DNA of 64,000 nt from Rubellimicrobium arenae (GTDB lineage: Bacteria; Pseudomonadota; Alphaproteobacteria; Rhodobacterales; Rhodobacteraceae): the NCBI RefSeq assembly GCF_017916275.1, contig NZ_JAFMST010000006.1, positions 186,001 to 250,000 of the forward strand, read 5' to 3'. The position numbers were made by a program, and so were the translations under genes. Position 1 is the first letter of the stretch, and the number at the start of each line of letters is the position of its first letter. This document shows, in pieces, positions 619-9,897 of the stretch. Below the pieces are notes generated by a model that was given only the letters and a program-made list of their open reading frames with translations, made no database searches and had not been told where the DNA came from.

Positions 619-830
619 TATGGGCCGCCCGAGGGGACCTGTCGAGCAGGGCCCCGGCCAGAAAGGTCGGGGGCGGCTTTCGCAGGCCAGGCGGTCAGCC
701 GCTTTTATGGACCAGGCCGCGTTGCGATTGGCTTGAGGGTCTCTCCGAAGCGAGCCCCGTCGTCGCGCGATGTCAAGGCACATTCGGCGTCGGCCTCCGG
801 ATGGCTTGCCCCCGCCGGTGACTCCCCGGG

Positions 831-1110
831 CCCCCGGCGTCGGCCACCAGATGGGGCTGGGGCCGGTCGATTCCGTGGACCCTCACGAGGCAGGGCGCTG
901 CGCCGGAGGCCGCGATTTCCTGCCGGCGGGAGGAGCGCGGTGTCGGACCGACGGCCACCCGGACAGTGGTGCCGCAGCGGCACCAAACCGGCGGCGAAAC
1001 GGTCGCCGCCGTCACCCGCGCCATCGCGGCGGGGCCGCGGAACCGCCCGATCGGTGACCAGGAAAAAAGTTGCGATGGGTGAAAAAGAGCCGGCACGATT
1101 TTCGCAACCT
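831..1110. repeat. 280-bp perfect direct repeat, copy 1
   Basis: Identical over 280 bp, with no substitution or indel, to positions 8429-8708 (constant offset 7598). Similarity decays abruptly on the left. On the right it continues as imperfect similarity into the 5' end of the winged-helix gene at 1175. The block ends about 65 bp before that start codon, so it probably carries the promoter/leader. Perfect identity next to diverged coding sequence points to recent gene conversion or selection on the DNA itself. Confidence 0.95.
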
Positions 1111-1174
1111 GCCTCTAGCCTCAGCGTATCGACAACAAGGCCACGGCGCGCGCCGGGCAACACGAGGGACAGAA

Positions 1175-1696
1175 ATGCGTGAATCTGCCAATGAATACAA
1201 CATCCGCTTCGTCGCGGGCCTGCTTGACGAGACCGCCCTGCGGGCGCTCCTTGAACAGGAGTTCGACGTCAACCGCTGCTCGATCGAGCGCGCGCCCTGG
1301 TCGGCCGTCGAGACGCCCCGCAAGGCCATGACGGTCCGCAAGGCCGTGACGCGCCGGCCCGGCCGCGAGAAGGCCAAGACGGCCCAGCCCGAGCGCCGGA
1401 ACGCTATCCAGGTGGCCCTCGACCCCGCCGAAGTGGCGAAGAGCTTCCCGATCCTCCGCGGGAAGATCGTGCAGGAGCTCGCGCGGGTGGGCGAGGCCTC
1501 GACGGAGGAGATCAGCTCCGTGCTCAAGGCGCGCGGTGTCCGGAGCGCGGACCACACGCGGGTCCACATCCAGCGTCTCCGCGAGAAGGGCTTCCTGGTG
1601 ACCGTCCGGGGGAAGCCGGGCAACCGCCACCACCTGACGGAACTGGGCGAGAGGCTCCACCAGGAGCTCCGCCGCCTGAACGACGAGGCGCGCTGA
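1175..1696 (+). CDS. Winged-helix DNA-binding protein, paralog A
   Basis: 173 aa of unknown specific function. The N-terminal third (about residues 10-47, containing RFVAGLLDETALR and CSIERAPW) is shared almost word for word with the protein at 8772-9275. A basic linker rich in Arg/Lys/Pro follows (about residues 48-75). The C-terminal 90 residues look like a MarR/ArsR-type winged helix, with a recognition-helix-like DHTRVHIQRLREKGFL and a wing ending in RHHLTELGERL. The ATG at 1175 was chosen because homology to the paralog begins there; the frame is open further upstream, into the repeat. The first domain has no family I recognise. It is likely a nucleoid-associated or regulatory protein (inference). 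Confidence 0.75.
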   Translation: MRESANEYNIRFVAGLLDETALRALLEQEFDVNRCSIERAPWSAVETPRKAMTVRKAVTRRPGREKAKTAQPERRNAIQVALDPAEVAKSFPILRGKIVQELARVGEASTEEISSVLKARGVRSADHTRVHIQRLREKGFLVTVRGKPGNRHHLTELGERLHQELRRLNDEAR

Positions 1697-1771
1697 AGCA
1701 CGGCACCCGGCTCCCCCAGACCTGAGACAGGGTCGGGGGAGCCCAGCCACCGGCCCGGAGAGAGATAGACG

Positions 1772-2470: not shown

Positions 2471-3887
2471 CGTTCCGGCCTGACCTGTCCCCGAACATGG
2501 GCGTTGTCAGGCGCCGCGGAAACGTTCGTCCTCGCGGCTCTTGCCCGGAACTTCGCAAGATTGGCGAAGCCGGTCCTGGCACCGAACCAGGGCCGACAGC
2601 CGGGAGTGCGGCCGGCGAACAAGATTTCCCTTGGCGCCTCCAGCGACCCGCTAGCACCTTGCCCGCCGGGTCACGAAATCTCGCGGCCCAACTGCCTCTT
2701 CGTTGTCGGTCGGATTGGTTCCGGCAGTTGATCATCAATGCAGATGCGAAGTTCGAACTCCTAGGCGGCTTGTTGTTGCCACGGTTGGGCCGAGGTCGAT
2801 GAGGCGGCACTCGCCGCCCTCGCCAGCGCGCGTTCAAGACTGAGCCGGCAGCGCATCCGCGCTGACAGAAGGATGGTTGAGGCGCTCCGGGTCTTCGCAA
2901 ATCGCCGCGCGTTGGAGAGGCGTGGGCCAACGTCAGGGAAGCCGGAGCGCAGATTGGAGGGCTGCGCCAGGAGCCGCATTGGCAGACCCGCGAGAGCTGG
3001 GCGGATAGGAGCCATGACTTGGCGGAGACGGACCAGCACGTCCGCAGCCGACCTCGCCCCCTCGCGAGAAAAGGCAGCCCGAGACGGCCAAGCACATGCC
3101 GCTCCTCGGCCTCGGGTCCAGACGGTGGGGGAGTAGGGCCCACTAGCGCGGCACCGACGTGCTCCTCCCGGCGAGCTGCCGTTCGCTCGCCCGGACCCTC
3201 CATGCGAGAAGCCCGAGCACCGCAGGACCGACAGAGGCCATAAGGAAGCGGTGAGGTCGGGTCCTCTCACTGTCATCTCAAGAAGCGCATCACGCGAGCG
3301 GTCGGCTCCGGTCCGTAGCTTCTCGAAGATGGTGAGGATAAACTCGCTGTCTTTCGGGCGGGCGGCGTCCGAAGCGGGCTGAAGTCCTAAGCGCCTCCGT
3401 TGAGGCGATGAGGCCAACCTCGGCTGAGGAATCGCCGACCGCTGTCTCGCTCCTTCGCTTAGGGCATCGCAGGCGACCTAGTTAAGGCGGGAAAGACGGT
3501 GTCGGTCGGCTTAGAGCCGCGCCACACCTCGAAACCCATATATTGTCGAAAGAGAGTAAGGGGATGTCCACTCCCTGGAAAAATCCCGGCGGGAGTCTCC
3601 GCGAGTGGTCCGACGTCGCCGGAGGCATCCCTCCCAAGGCCTGCCGGGCCCATCTATGCGTTTCCCGACCGACTCCGGGCGCGATCTGCCATTTCTCATA
3701 TCGCAAACCGGCAGGGAAACTGGACATGGCAAACGCCATCGCGGCCGCAAGGCCATCGGGTCGCACGGGGCTGAAAAGCAGCCCTGCCGCGGCCAGGCTG
3801 GAGCTGCCCCGGCCGTCTGATCTCTCGACAGAGGCTGCCGTGTTATGGGAAGCTCCCGGATTGGCGCGACGTGAGACGAGGAGCGGC
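2471..3887. other. Long stretch without a confident gene
   Basis: No intact recognisable gene. Two hints of broken coding sequence were seen. On the minus strand, around 3420-3270, a frame with TTG start contains PKDSEFILTIFEKLRTGADR. After a shift near 3265 it could continue into a hydrophobic tail (MASVGPAVLGLLAWRVRASE) ending near 3145. On the plus strand, around 2780-2900, a frame reads EVDEAALAALASARSRLSRQ. Neither can be assigned to a family. Confidence 0.3.
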
Positions 3888-4358
3888 ATGACCAATCGGG
3901 TTCCCGACGAGATACCGGCGTCGGCCCCCGCGCCGGAGGGCGCGTCGAGTCCAAGGGAGGCCGTGGCCGATGGCGAGGCTACGCGGCCGATCGAGGAATT
4001 GCCGGTCTGGGCCGCGAACTTGCAGCACCTGACCCGGCGCAGCGGCCTCACGCAGGCAGAACTCGCGCGCCGTGCCGGCCTGCAGAGAGATGCATTCGGG
4101 CGCTATCTTCTCGGTCGGACGCGACCGCCGCCGGCCAAGCTCGTGGCCATCGCCAAAGCCTTGGGGGTCCGACCGGCGGACATCGACCCCGAGCGGGGCG
4201 ACCTCGAGGAGGTGCCACCCCCGGAGCAGGGCCGGGTGCCGTTCCGGATCACCCCCGCCTACGGTGGGGGCCGGGGCCGGGTGTTCCTCGAGGTCGCGGC
4301 GGAGATGGACATCGCCGACGCGCTCCGGATCGTCGAGCTGATGACGAAGGAGAAGTAA
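3888..4358 (+). CDS. XRE-type helix-turn-helix protein
   Basis: 156 aa putative transcriptional regulator. Residues about 45-110 form an HTH_3/XRE domain: LTRRSGLTQAELARRAGL, then RYLLGRTRPPPAKLVAIAKALGV. A C-terminal extension ends in VAAEMDIADALRIVELMTKEK. The ATG at 3888 is preceded by GAGGAG; the frame stays open upstream to 3543, but that part has poor composition. It is unlinked to an obvious target and lies upstream of the tRNA. Repressors of this size are common on prophages and plasmids. The exact role is unknown. Confidence 0.75.
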   Translation: MTNRVPDEIPASAPAPEGASSPREAVADGEATRPIEELPVWAANLQHLTRRSGLTQAELARRAGLQRDAFGRYLLGRTRPPPAKLVAIAKALGVRPADIDPERGDLEEVPPPEQGRVPFRITPAYGGGRGRVFLEVAAEMDIADALRIVELMTKEK

Positions 4359-4359
4359 T

Positions 4360-5004
4360 CTAGGCCACTGGAGGACCCGCCCGAGACTTGGCTGTCGGTC
4401 GTCGACGGAGCTTCGTGCGCGCCTGCGGCACGGCCCAAGCTCCTGGACCGGTCGCAGGACGCGCTCGCGCGTGGCGCGGGACGGTGGGAGCGGCTGGGCT
4501 CGAACCAGCGCCCTCTCGCTTATAAGGCAAGCGCTCTGCCGCTGAGCTACGCTCCTGAGGTTGCCGCCAAGCTTGACTCGTTCTCCTCTTTTCGTGGGGC
4601 CACTGTCCTAGTCGCCGGGCGTCATATCGAGGGCCGTCCGGGGCGGGACGACCTAGATGATCTGGAGCGGCACCGAGATTGGTCATCGATGAACAAAATC
4701 GGCCTCGAATTCTCCCGAAAGGGCCATCCGTGACCAAAACGGTGGCGGCCCAGGAGGGCTCCCGGAGGTCGTCGGCCCTGGCTCCGAGGAGATGGAAGCG
4801 GGCTGCGCGCCGGCCCGTGGGATCGACCTGCCCCTGCTTGGCCGCCGCGCCGACCACGGCCGCCGCAAGCAGACGCGCCACGCTACGGGGCCGTGCGACC
4901 CCCGCGGCGATAGTGGCCTTCTCGCCCACGGTGACCGGCCAGCTGCCGATCCGGAGCGGCGACACTAGCGTAGGTTCGCCCTCGATGCGCCGCGCGACCT
5001 TCAC
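4360..5004 (-). CDS. Hypothetical frame overlapping the tRNA; only the 5' part is likely real
   Basis: A GTG start at 5004 follows closely on the end of the upstream open frame (stop at 5001). The first 85 or so codons have coding-like composition and a hydrophobic stretch (SVARLLAAAVVGAAAKQ). The last third runs antisense-free but directly through the tRNA at 4485-4556 on the same strand, so the frame cannot be real to its end. A frameshift near 4750-4680 is likely. No domain is recognised. It may be the last gene of the ATPase operon. Confidence 0.25.
   Translation of the reverse strand: MKVARRIEGEPTLVSPLRIGSWPVTVGEKATIAAGVARPRSVARLLAAAVVGAAAKQGQVDPTGRRAARFHLLGARADDLREPSWAATVLVTDGPFGRIRGRFCSSMTNLGAAPDHLGRPAPDGPRYDARRLGQWPHEKRRTSQAWRQPQERSSAAERLPYKREGAGSSPAAPTVPRHARARPATGPGAWAVPQARTKLRRRPTAKSRAGPPVA
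4485..4556 (-). tRNA. tRNA-Ile (anticodon UAU), putative
   Basis: A 72-nt cloverleaf on the minus strand. The 7-bp acceptor stem is AGGAGCG/CGCTCCC with a mismatched A1-C72. The D arm is GCTC-AGCGGCA-GAGC. The anticodon arm is CTTGC-CTTATAA-GCGAG, giving anticodon UAU. A 5-nt variable loop follows, then the T arm GCTGG-TTCGAGC-CCAGC and discriminator A. The genomic bases after the discriminator are CCG, so the CCA end is not fully encoded. UAU would read AUA isoleucine codons, which most bacteria read with a lysidine-modified CAU tRNA. UAU tRNAs are typical of phages and other mobile elements. Confidence 0.7.
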
Positions 5005-5062
5005 GGGCCTGTACCGCTCCTAGCCCTGCAGCCTGGCGAGGTGAGGCTCCAAGCTAATCGGC

Positions 5063-5462
5063 TCACCGCCTCGCGGTCGCGCAGGCGTCGCAGAGCGTCT
5101 GCAGATAAGGTTGGTCGGTCCGGAGCTCGCCTAGGCGGCCGCAGGTCTCGCAAGTCCGCGCGCGCGGCGCGCGCCTCGGCGCGGACGATGGCGGCCTCCA
5201 CCGGATCCGTGTAGGGGTGGACGTAGACCCTCAGGCCCTCGTACTTGTCCTTGACCTGCAGGATGTGGATGCCCCCGACGCCCTCCTTGCGCACGAGGAC
5301 GGCGAGCTCCTCGAGGAGGCCGAGGACGAGGGGCCGCCAGCCTTCGCCGACCATGAGGCCCCAGACCATGCAACCGGTCCGCGCGTCCCAGCGCCCCGAC
5401 CCAAAGAGCTCGGGGAAGGCGCTCATCACGCGCAGGTCACGCTCACTCAGCAAGCTGCTCAT
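5063..5462 (-). pseudogene. Small zinc-ribbon protein, frameshifted
   Basis: The open frame runs from ATG 5462 to 5001. After ...AEARAAR (about 5165), however, the coding signal jumps to the +1 frame, which reads TCETCGRLGELRTDQ and then LCDACATARR before TGA at 5063-5065. The restored protein is about 130 aa: an alpha/beta N-terminal domain (ILQVKDKYEGLRVYVHPY) plus a CxxC...CxxC zinc ribbon. The break lies in a GCGCGCGCGCG tract, so loss of one GC unit, or an assembly error, explains it. It sits 12 bp after the AAA+ ATPase gene, in its operon. Confidence 0.65.
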
Positions 5463-5474
5463 CTCTCCCTCCCG

Positions 5475-6659
5475 TCAGTGCAGGACCGGCCGATTGGCAG
5501 CGGCCTCGGCCGCTTCCACGAGGCGCGCGACCTGGCGCAACCCGAGGTTGGCGCCGCGCTTCAGCGCCCGCTCAACCTCCCCGGCCACGAGCTCGGCCCC
5601 TTCCTCGTCGAGCTTGACCGCCGCCATCCGGCGCGCGGTGGTGACGAGGTCGCGCTGGCCGACGGCGTCGAGCTCGATCACCCGCACCCGATCGAGAAGC
5701 GCCTGCTCGATGTGCATGACACTGTTGGTCGTCATCACCCAGCTGTGGTGGCGCAGGTCGATGGCCACCTCGTAGTAAGGGCACACCCACGCCGCGCCCG
5801 TCGACGGCTCGATCATCCCCATCATCACACGATGGATTGAGGGCGAGCGGCCGCCCCCGTGGACGCCCATGGCGCGGCCGGCGTCGATCTCGTCGACCGC
5901 CACCACCGGGTTGCCGATGCGCGTCGCGAGGAGCGAGCGCGTGATACGCCCCGGGGAACTCCCACCCCATTTGCTGTCGCTTCCCTGCAGGTCCCACACG
6001 CCACCGGCTTGGCCCACGTCTACGGTGACCGTGGGCACGCTGAAGGGTGCTCCGAGCGCCCGCGCGAAGCTGGACTTGCCGCAGCCCGGCGGCCCGAGGA
6101 GGACGACCGGCCCAACCCGGAAGGGCAGGCCGTCTCGGGCCCGCAGCCGTGCCTGATGCCACAGGATCTCCGTCGCCCGGGCTAGCCACGGAAACTCGGC
6201 GTGGATGGCCGCGAAGGCCTCGTCCACTTCGGCCTCGGTCGCGACCCCGCTTAGGCGCATGGCGTGGGTGGCGGCGAAGAGCTCGTCGCGCTCCTCCCGA
6301 GCGATCCGGGTGGGCAGCGGCGTCGGCGGGAGCCGGCGCGCCTCGATCGTCGCCGCGGCGCGCTTGATGCGGGCGCGGTCCGACTCGGGGAGTGCATAGG
6401 CCGCTTGCGGCGGCAGCCAGCGCGGGTCGTCGCGGCTTCCGTCGCCTGCGAGGGACTGCGCGATAAGGGCGGCGCCCCGTCCCTTATCCAACCGGGCGTT
6501 GCGGCGGGTCTGGGCGCGCCAGCGATCGACCTCGGTGTCGCGACGGCGCGCCTCGCGCTCGGCGGCCTCGAGGCGCTGGAGATAAGCGCGGGCGAGTTCG
6601 CCGGGCGCGCGGGGCTTGGGTCGGGCGGTGATGAGCCCGGGGGCGGGGAGGGAGCGCAT
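5475..6659 (-). CDS. AAA+ family ATPase
   Basis: 394 aa. The first 150 residues are basic and helical; the rest is an AAA+ module. Walker A is GPPGCGKSS (Lys195) and Walker B is VVAVDEID (Glu257). A WVMTTNS sensor-1-like segment is followed by ALLDRVRVIEL, with its arginine-finger-like Arg. The layout resembles the Lon-like/MoxR-like single-ring ATPases found on phages and plasmids. The start was set at ATG 6659 rather than at the more upstream possible start (6791), whose extra residues are low-complexity. It is flanked by a coupled pair of small genes upstream and the zinc-ribbon gene downstream, all on the minus strand. The substrate is unknown. Confidence 0.85.
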   Translation of the reverse strand: MRSLPAPGLITARPKPRAPGELARAYLQRLEAAEREARRRDTEVDRWRAQTRRNARLDKGRGAALIAQSLAGDGSRDDPRWLPPQAAYALPESDRARIKRAAATIEARRLPPTPLPTRIAREERDELFAATHAMRLSGVATEAEVDEAFAAIHAEFPWLARATEILWHQARLRARDGLPFRVGPVVLLGPPGCGKSSFARALGAPFSVPTVTVDVGQAGGVWDLQGSDSKWGGSSPGRITRSLLATRIGNPVVAVDEIDAGRAMGVHGGGRSPSIHRVMMGMIEPSTGAAWVCPYYEVAIDLRHHSWVMTTNSVMHIEQALLDRVRVIELDAVGQRDLVTTARRMAAVKLDEEGAELVAGEVERALKRGANLGLRQVARLVEAAEAAANRPVLH

Positions 6660-6809
6660 GACGTCACACGGAAGGGTAGAGTGGGACGGAGGACGCGCGG
6701 TCAGCGCGTGGGGGCGAAGGTCGCGGGCATGCGTATGGTCGTCATGGCGAGCATCGTAGCGAGCGGAGGTCAGTCGTCGAGCGGCGGACAAGTTGGGCGG
6801 TCGCCGAGG

Positions 6810-7193
6810 TCAGCCGCTCTTGGGGGTGAGGAGATCGTGGCGCAGCGCATCGCACCAGAGTTCAGCGCCAAGGAGCGTCGCGACCACGGCGAGCTCACTG
6901 GTGAGGGTTGCATGCGCCCCGAGCTCAACCCAGGCGGCACCGACGAGCCACGCCGCGCTGAGCCTCGGCGCGACAGCCAGGAGCGGGAGGTTCAACCGCT
7001 CCGCCGCGCCGTCGAGATGGCCCTGGATGTGGAGCAGGTCGTGCTCACCCAAGTCGATCTGCCAGCCGTCGAGGACGGGCAGGCGGCCGTTCGGAACGCG
7101 AGGCAGGTGCTCGCTGTCCGCGATGAGGAGGAGCAACTCGCCCAGGGGGATCCGGCCAAGGGCGGGCCGGGCGACGGGGAGCGGCTCCGGCAT
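6810..7193 (-). CDS. Small hypothetical protein of the ATPase operon
   Basis: 127 aa with no recognised family. A textbook AGGAGG lies seven bases before the ATG, inside the end of the upstream gene. The ATG overlaps that gene's stop codon by one base (TGATG), so the two are translationally coupled. The sequence is rich in Leu/Ala with a hydrophobic C-terminal half (AAWLVGAAWVELG, LAVVATLLGAELW), but no clear membrane segment. It ends 150 bp before the AAA+ gene. Confidence 0.65.
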   Translation of the reverse strand: MPEPLPVARPALGRIPLGELLLLIADSEHLPRVPNGRLPVLDGWQIDLGEHDLLHIQGHLDGAAERLNLPLLAVAPRLSAAWLVGAAWVELGAHATLTSELAVVATLLGAELWCDALRHDLLTPKSG

Positions 7194-8039: not shown

Positions 8040-8428
8040 CGTCTGATCCGACGGTGGCTGGAGAATGGCTCCGGTGTTCGGCGAACCGAAGATCTCGGTC
8101 CACTCGTCGAACAGCCGTTGCTGGTGATCAGCGTGGCGCCGCGCTCGTAGCGTTGGGAGATCAGCTCGAAGTGCAGCTCAGCCCCGGTCGTCGAGAGCGG
8201 CGCGAAGCCAGTTCGTCGATGATCAGCAGCGTGTGGCTGGCGATCCGCTTCTGGAGGCGCATGAGCTGGCGCTCGCCACGGGCCTTCATCAACTCATGCG
8301 AGAGAGCAGCCGTGCTGGTGAAGCCGACAGCGAAGCCCTTTTGGCAGGCGGTCAGGCCAAGCCCGAGGGCGACATAGGTCTTGCCTGTGCTGCTTAGGCC
8401 GAGGGCGATGACGCTCTCACTCCGAGGC
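8040..8428 (-). pseudogene. istB: IS21-family istB (helper ATPase) relic
   Basis: On the minus strand the segment encodes the IstB/DnaC-like ATPase core: a degenerate Walker A LGLSSTGKTYVALGLGL, then LMRLQKRIASHTLLIIDELA. After a one-base deletion near 8207 the signal continues in another frame (FAPLSTTGAELHFELISQRYERGATLITSN), and further breaks follow near FDEWTEIFG. The N-terminal third is missing: homology stops exactly where the 280-bp repeat begins at 8429. It is clearly inactive. It marks a past IS21 insertion that was later cut by the duplication. Confidence 0.85.
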
Positions 8429-8708
8429 CCCCCGGCGTCGGCCACCAGATGGGGCTGGGGCCGGTCGATTCCGTGGACCCTCACGAGGCAGGGCGCTGCG
8501 CCGGAGGCCGCGATTTCCTGCCGGCGGGAGGAGCGCGGTGTCGGACCGACGGCCACCCGGACAGTGGTGCCGCAGCGGCACCAAACCGGCGGCGAAACGG
8601 TCGCCGCCGTCACCCGCGCCATCGCGGCGGGGCCGCGGAACCGCCCGATCGGTGACCAGGAAAAAAGTTGCGATGGGTGAAAAAGAGCCGGCACGATTTT
8701 CGCAACCT
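8429..8708. repeat. 280-bp perfect direct repeat, copy 2
   Basis: Identical to 831-1110. Its left edge truncates the istB relic; its right edge leads into the leader of the paralogous gene at 8772. The abrupt left junction inside istB indicates that this copy (repeat plus gene) arrived second, as a transposed or recombined unit. Confidence 0.95.
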
Positions 8709-8771
8709 CCCCCTAGCCTCATCATATCGACAACAAGCTGAGGCGCGAGCCCAGCAACACGAGGGACAACG

Positions 8772-9275
8772 ATGCGTACGGCACCCCATTTTTACAGCAT
8801 CCGCTTCGTCGCGGGCATGCTCGATGAGACCGCCCTGCGGCGGATGCTCGGAGAGCAGTTCGACATCCCCTGCTGCTCGATCGAGCGCGCGCCCTGGCCG
8901 GCCGTCGAGACGACGCACAAGGCCAAGACGGTCCAGCCCGAGCGCGAGAAGGCCGGGACGCGCCGGCCCGGCCGCCCGCGGGGGAGCAAGCTCGTCCTGG
9001 ACCTCGCCGTCCGGGCCGCGGACTTCCCGCCCCTGCGCGGAATCGTCCTCAATGAGCTCGCCCGGGTCGGCAATGCCTCGACGAACGAGATCAGGCGCGT
9101 CCTCGAGACGCGCAAGGTGCGGCGCGCTGACCTGACCCGGGTCGAAATCGACCGGCTGCGCCAGGAGGGCTTCCTGCGGACGGAGCCCGGTGCCCCCGAC
9201 GACCGCCACCACCTGACGGAGCGGGGGCAGCGGCTCGCCGAGGAGCTCCATCGCCTGCACGGCGAGGCGCGCTGA
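8772..9275 (+). CDS. Winged-helix DNA-binding protein with AT-hook, paralog B
   Basis: 167 aa paralog of the protein at 1175-1696. It shares the N-terminal domain (RFVAGMLDETALR, CSIERAPWPAVET) and the C-terminal winged helix (DLTRVEIDRLRQEGFL, RHHLTERGQRLAEEL). The linker carries RRPGRPRGSK, whose GRPRG core matches an AT-hook minor-groove binding motif; paralog A has only the degraded RRPGREKAK there. The ATG at 8772 is where alignment with the paralog starts. The upstream 280 bp are the perfect repeat. Binding to AT-rich foreign DNA is an attractive role but is only an inference. Confidence 0.75.
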   Translation: MRTAPHFYSIRFVAGMLDETALRRMLGEQFDIPCCSIERAPWPAVETTHKAKTVQPEREKAGTRRPGRPRGSKLVLDLAVRAADFPPLRGIVLNELARVGNASTNEIRRVLETRKVRRADLTRVEIDRLRQEGFLRTEPGAPDDRHHLTERGQRLAEELHRLHGEAR

Positions 9276-9897
9276 CGCCCGCCCTCGGCTTCCCCGGCGC
9301 CCCAACCCAGGGCCCTGGGGAGCCCAGCCAGCCGACCCCTCTCGTATAGGCGAGTTGCCTTGGCGACGACATGATGGCGACTTGCTCGTCAGGGGGCGAC
9401 CGTCTGCCAGCGCTCATCGCAGATCTGATGCACTTGGGGTCCTCATGCTGCAGAGCGCCGCAGCGGGGATCCCAATTAGAGAGGATACTCCACAAGTTGG
9501 GAGCCGAGGAGGATGAGCGCCAAGGACCCCATGCAGCCGCACCATGCGCTCCACCTCACCGCTCAGCGGCTCACCCAGGAGCCGCAGGGCCTCCGTAGCC
9601 GATAAGGCCCAGGACGATGCGATCCCGAGAAAGGCCTGGCACGCGGCGCGGCTCTCCGGTCCAGGATCGGCGGCCGGCGGTGCTGGGATGGCTCGCCGCC
9701 TTGTCTTGCGGACCGGCAGATCGGTCCGTGGCGGCGAGGTGACCAAGGACGAACGCTCTGCGTGCGGAACCCGGCCAAAGTGACTGGCCCGTCCGAGTTC
9801 CTCTGGACCTACCTTCACCCGGGTGACGGCTTCCGATAGATGTCTTCGTGCCCGAGCCAGCCATCCACTCCGTCCTTCTGAACCTCCGAGGTCTGCG
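9276..9897. other. Intergenic region before the histidine kinase
   Basis: No recognisable gene. Open frames on both strands have low-complexity translations. The last 70 bp should hold the kinase promoter; no clear -35/-10 pair was recognised. Confidence 0.4.

Follow-up and report, generated by a model that had tools for sequence, protein, structure and literature searches.

Transfer RNAs for isoleucine that carry the anticodon UAU have been described in several settings. According to the excerpted text of one study, Mycoplasma mobile uses tRNA-Ile2(UAU) for the AUA codon and has no tilS (PMC4013482), and Lactobacillus plantarum possesses redundant CAU and UAU tRNAs-Ile, as stated in the title of a paper cited in PMC9976931. 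A further system, tRNA-dependent lysogeny, is set out in passages of PMC10865867; there a phage tRNA replaces the host tRNA that is cut by integration, and an integrase is present. A literature search found no paper on the locus considered here, a tRNA-Ile(UAU) gene of the alphaproteobacterium Rubellimicrobium arenae, which lies in a 64,000-nucleotide stretch of contig NZ_JAFMST010000006.1 (the window).

This gene has its anticodon in common with M. mobile, which, as far as the excerpt goes, depends on its UAU tRNA, whereas the Rubellimicrobium genome encodes tilS (above the curated cut-off) as well as a CAU-type tRNA-Ile; lysidine-free decoding of the M. mobile type, which implies the lack of both, is thus not what this genome displays. 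On the evidence of that title, L. plantarum and the present genome both carry CAU and UAU tRNAs, although L. plantarum is Gram-positive. Nor does tRNA-dependent lysogeny, as those passages describe it, fit the locus, given that the CAU-type Ile tRNA of the host is intact and that no integrase was found. Viral tRNA-Ile(UAU) genes on IMG/VR contigs share the anticodon, and some of them lack CCA and are mismatched at 1-72, but several adjoin other phage tRNAs (L302, L129), whereas the window tRNA stands singly with no recognised phage genes.

The gene occupies 4485..4556 on the minus strand, with its 5' end at 4556 and the discriminator A73 at 4485. ARAGORN called a tRNA-Ile with anticodon TAT at 4483-4556 on that strand, the single tRNA in the window, and the Rfam tRNA family RF00005 matched 4485-4556 (minus strand) with 63.3 bits (E 2.2e-11, cut-off 29), the window's only Rfam match above cut-off; the genome yielded 45 tRNAs, and by this score the gene ranks 30th of them. 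The anticodon (4522..4524, minus strand; ARAGORN, gene position 33) sits within a 7-base loop, as expected of a tRNA-Ile(UAU). The preliminary description had proposed a UAU-anticodon tRNA with an A1-C72 mismatch and no encoded CCA, to be given up if covariance models scored it below threshold. ARAGORN, Rfam and the sequence itself confirm each of these features, place the gene on the minus strand, which had not been given, and put the score far above the threshold. When folded as a single strand without modifications the sequence yielded no cloverleaf and did no better than shuffled versions (z 0.08), and for this reason it is the covariance model, not folding energy, that carries the case.

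In E. coli the isoleucine identity elements are A73, A37, A38 and U12-A23. All of these can be read in the window tRNA, consistent with isoleucine identity, while C29-G41 and C4-G69 of E. coli tRNA-Ile are absent.

The acceptor strands, read from the assembly 5' to 3', are AGGAGCG and CGCTCCC, followed by A73 and CCG. By sequence and by the Rfam alignment A1 (4556..4556, minus strand) lies opposite C72 (4486) as the sole acceptor mismatch, and CCG (4482..4484, minus strand) occupies the place of CCA, so that C74 and C75 are encoded and the third tail base is G. CCA is encoded in 44 of the 45 tRNA genes of the genome, the exception being tRNA-Ile(UAU), and the only other non-standard 1-72 pairs among the 45 are the C1-A72 pairs of three initiator copies. 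By the standard of this host, in which a gene ready for maturation has an encoded CCA and a paired 1-72, tRNA-Ile(UAU) falls short on both counts. The three initiator genes lie at ends of contigs C2, C6 and C35, and tRNA-Ile(GAU) and tRNA-Ala(UGC) were not found in the genome, as if three rRNA operons had collapsed in assembly.

The new gene is redundant in this genome. The host already reads AUA by means of TilS and a tRNA (L016) that we take, by its sequence type, to be tRNA-Ile2(CAU), and the UAU tRNA is therefore not needed. AUA is also very rare, as the preliminary description had supposed for a GC-rich host: a 400-kb sample of the chromosome, in which this analysis made 323 gene models with 107,229 codons, has 0.55 AUA per 1000 codons, and AUA accounts for 1.2% of its Ile codons. 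A suggested comparison of the island with the chromosome revealed no enrichment, the window having 0.41 AUA per 1000 codons (50 gene models), and all 5 gene models between 1 and 9500 are devoid of it. The idea that the tRNA serves AUA-rich neighbours likewise found no support, since the two adjacent minus-strand ORFs contain 0 AUA codons and the plus-strand regulator ORF 1.

Lysidine-free decoding of the M. mobile type would go with an isoleucyl-tRNA synthetase in which the CxxC motif is followed by Arg instead of Trp. The genome has one full copy of ileS, whose product reads KCQRCW and thus retains Trp; it is 73.3% identical to a Paracoccus denitrificans copy and about 56% identical to Rhizobiales copies, which probably puts the host in the same order as Limimaricola cinnabarinus. 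Among 30 other genomes with UAU tRNAs the motif was readable only in L397, where it is also Trp. Work by Taniguchi in 2013 reportedly found that in E. coli a Trp at this position disfavours UAU.

The anticodon as such is already known, and what is unusual is only the host, because among the matches listed tRNA-Ile(UAU) is common in viral contigs and in Patescibacteria, Planctomycetes and other genomes. That it is unusual for this host, as had been supposed, was borne out by a pattern search that requires a canonical D-arm and passes over tRNAs with other D-arms: with the own genome included, it recovered UAU tRNAs in 1 of 101 relatives, 1 of 394 genomes of the family and 3 of 385 of the class. 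In another alphaproteobacterium (G174; L378, L423:10117-10345) tRNA-Ile(UAU) adjoins a tRNA called Met(CAU) by ARAGORN that resembles Ile2. The gene is also present in the actinobacteria Saccharopolyspora indica and Streptomyces sp. R302 (L226, L249); in L226 it adjoins tRNA-Pro and, by ARAGORN boundaries, has no CCA. Several look-alikes proved to be something else, namely a Methylobacterium plasmid match (tRNA-Val), a Ruegeria phage match (tRNA-Met(CAU)) and a phage 4MG match (tRNA-Ile(GAU)); the best tRNA matches in relatives were Val, Asn, Lys, Pro and Ala, none of them UAU.

Over 60 structural positions the nearest of all sequences compared was a tRNA-Ile(UAU) of Limimaricola cinnabarinus (86.7%), followed by the tRNA-Ile(GAU) of phage 4MG (85%). 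The window and Limimaricola tRNAs have in common the anticodon, a 7-base D-loop and 62 of 75 bases over the full length, and their stem differences are paired or G-U exchanges, the exception being 1-72. The Limimaricola gene is present in two copies on scaffold NZ_KZ304988.1 (L292), both with G1-C72 and CCA. The scaffold also encodes HTH_17, Mob_Pre and Rep_1 genes and has the look of a small plasmid of rolling-circle type, or of an integrated copy of one. An 8-kb piece of it contains two diverged units (84% identity across 2157 bases), and in both of them the tRNA separates the HTH gene from the Mob gene; in the units at 927-2674 and 5393-7131 the tRNA overlaps the end of the HTH_17 ORF and abuts the Mob ORF. 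Only 2 of the 75 bases are different between the two tRNAs, and the flanking sequence is 77% identical upstream and 96% identical over the next 300 bases downstream; because the downstream sequence is so similar, we do not argue for selection on the tRNA copies. The window locus, in contrast, is without flanking HTH_17 and Mob_Pre genes; tblastn with the Limimaricola genes found none near the window tRNA, and only the tRNA itself matches the scaffold convincingly. No tRNA-Ile(UAU) lay beside related Mob genes in the 5 regions checked on other plasmids, drawn from eight matching records, and no viral relatives of the Limimaricola Mob protein were confirmed.

Judged from this comparison, in which 1-72 is the one stem pair not preserved and both plasmid copies show G1-C72 and a CCA tail, the two end changes, A1 and CCG, look derived in the window copy.

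Upstream of the tRNA and co-directional with it lie a hypothetical ORF (5001..5462, minus strand), which has related ORFs in the genus-mate G006 and no match in PHROGs or NCBIfam, and a Lon-like AAA ATPase ORF (5475..6659, minus strand; Pfam AAA, with a partial lon match below cut-off), whose homologues in several relatives are 30-37% identical. Facing the tRNA is a Cro/CI-type HTH ORF (3543..4358, plus strand; Pfam HTH_31 and HTH_3, PHROGs repressors). Further out are a fragment of IstB, the IS21 helper ATPase (8073..8424), with 74-80% DNA matches to annotated plasmid istB genes, and a duplicated segment, whose copies at 821..1756 and 8419..9337 are direct repeats (D1-D4) about 7.6 kb apart; one 300-base part of the duplication is 98% identical and the others 69-81%. 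The IstB fragment and the duplication mark the locus as apparently rearranged. Among the matches listed, none of seven genus-mates matched the DNA from about window position -350 to 8083, the tRNA included.

The preliminary description had taken the gene for a mobile-element tRNA. The rarity of UAU, the rarity of AUA and a plasmid-like nearest UAU relative all speak for this, while at the site itself no mobile element could be identified beyond the IstB fragment: no integrase, relaxase, replication, plasmid or phage structural genes were recognised near the tRNA when the ORFs were scanned against Pfam, PHROGs and NCBIfam and searched by tblastn. The possibility that the tRNA is part of an AAA-ATPase-linked element was rejected, as 0 of 14 regions of relatives with ATPase homologues hold tRNA-Ile(UAU). 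In the genus-mate G005 a stretch of 21 bases is identical to the 3' end of the tRNA; this candidate attachment site falls outside any tRNA, in apparent coding sequence, and the match was treated as chance.

On balance we think it rather probable that this redundant tRNA-Ile(UAU) gene was acquired horizontally, was left over in the chromosome and is now weakly functional or silent. It would be a relic of a type of gene that phages carry, as does the small Rep/Mob plasmid-like element of the same bacterial order; with no integrase, phage structural or plasmid gene found nearby, this mobile origin is an inference. Against such an acquisition stands the fact that no recognised mobile-element gene is left next to the tRNA and that, besides the tRNA, nothing matches the Limimaricola scaffold convincingly. 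The 83% similarity of the tRNAs is modest evidence of descent, with the phage tRNA-Ile(GAU) nearly as close, the remaining features of the tRNA are intact, unlike those of an old pseudogene, and the end need not be damage, in that ends of this form are also met among viral UAU tRNAs.

A working accessory tRNA is a possibility that we consider unlikely but deserving of attention. The transcript would be trimmed, its CCA restored by a CCA-adding enzyme and the product charged by IleRS, the 1-72 mismatch being tolerated, and it would add to the capacity for reading AUA, for instance when foreign DNA enters. The body of the tRNA does fit the model well at 63.3 bits, its anticodon loop and A73 are typical of Ile tRNAs (A73 occurs in 113 of 113 parsed viral UAU tRNAs among the matches listed), pairing is kept in the stem differences from the plasmid relative, and the genome encodes a PolyA_pol-family enzyme, the family to which CCA-adding enzymes belong. 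On the other hand, such a tRNA would supplement the reading of a very rare codon that the CAU-type tRNA and tilS already serve, the Trp of the host IleRS would, if the reported E. coli effect holds, disfavour it, and a crude scan found no sigma-70-like promoter from 4201 to 5100.

The imperfect end might instead have been present already in a source phage, with no decay since arrival, a reading that we regard as improbable. Among the matches listed, 113 viral tRNA-Ile(UAU) genes could be parsed of 121 matched, and of these 12 have a 1-72 mismatch, 70 no CCA and 8 both; the corresponding cellular set (79 parsed of 117 matched) has 0 mismatches and 60 genes without CCA, and A1 occurs in 33/113 viral genes against 1/79 cellular ones. 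Since the two sets were gathered by different patterns and are not independent, p-values of this comparison serve as a guide only, but the viral ends do mean that an imperfect end by itself is no proof of a dead gene. Against an unaltered phage tRNA, CC is still encoded, which suggests a former CCA now lost, the nearest UAU tRNA found, which has G1 and CCA, is that of the plasmid-like scaffold, and no phage genes were recognised nearby.

It is very improbable, in our judgment, that the damaged acceptor end was selected, weaker charging taming a harmful incoming UAU tRNA while the fold is kept, or, in a wider version, that tRNA-Ile(UAU) serves small Rep/Mob elements as a helper, or as a decoy for enzymes that cut tRNAs, and that the window gene is a chromosomal leftover of this. 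In M. mobile work, a UAU tRNA with unmodified U34 is said to be able, on certain ribosomes, to read AUG wrongly as isoleucine. Duplication of a host tRNA gene followed by mutation of the anticodon to UAU is scarcely credible, for although the host tRNA-Lys(UUU) shows 79% similarity when the alignment tolerates gaps, no host tRNA among the matches listed reaches at least 73% over the 60 structural positions while foreign UAU tRNAs reach 87%, and the gene is the sole one of the 45 that lacks CCA.

Under the favoured account of an acquired relic, the UAU tRNA would have arrived horizontally and stayed on in chromosomal sequence that is variable and scarred. If intact, such a tRNA would read AUA directly through U34, without lysidine. 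With A1 where the relative has G1 and CCG where it has CCA, the window copy would probably be poorly matured and charged, and its function would require 3' trimming and addition of CCA.

There is no sign that the host relies on tRNA-Ile(UAU), and otherwise little changes. What the gene indicates is that the rare, lysidine-free type of AUA reading can appear as a single spare gene in an alphaproteobacterium that has tilS, and that a small plasmid-like element is a possible carrier of tRNA-Ile(UAU). With an intact tRNA body and a broken acceptor end, it also offers a natural test case for whether such a molecule is still processed and charged.
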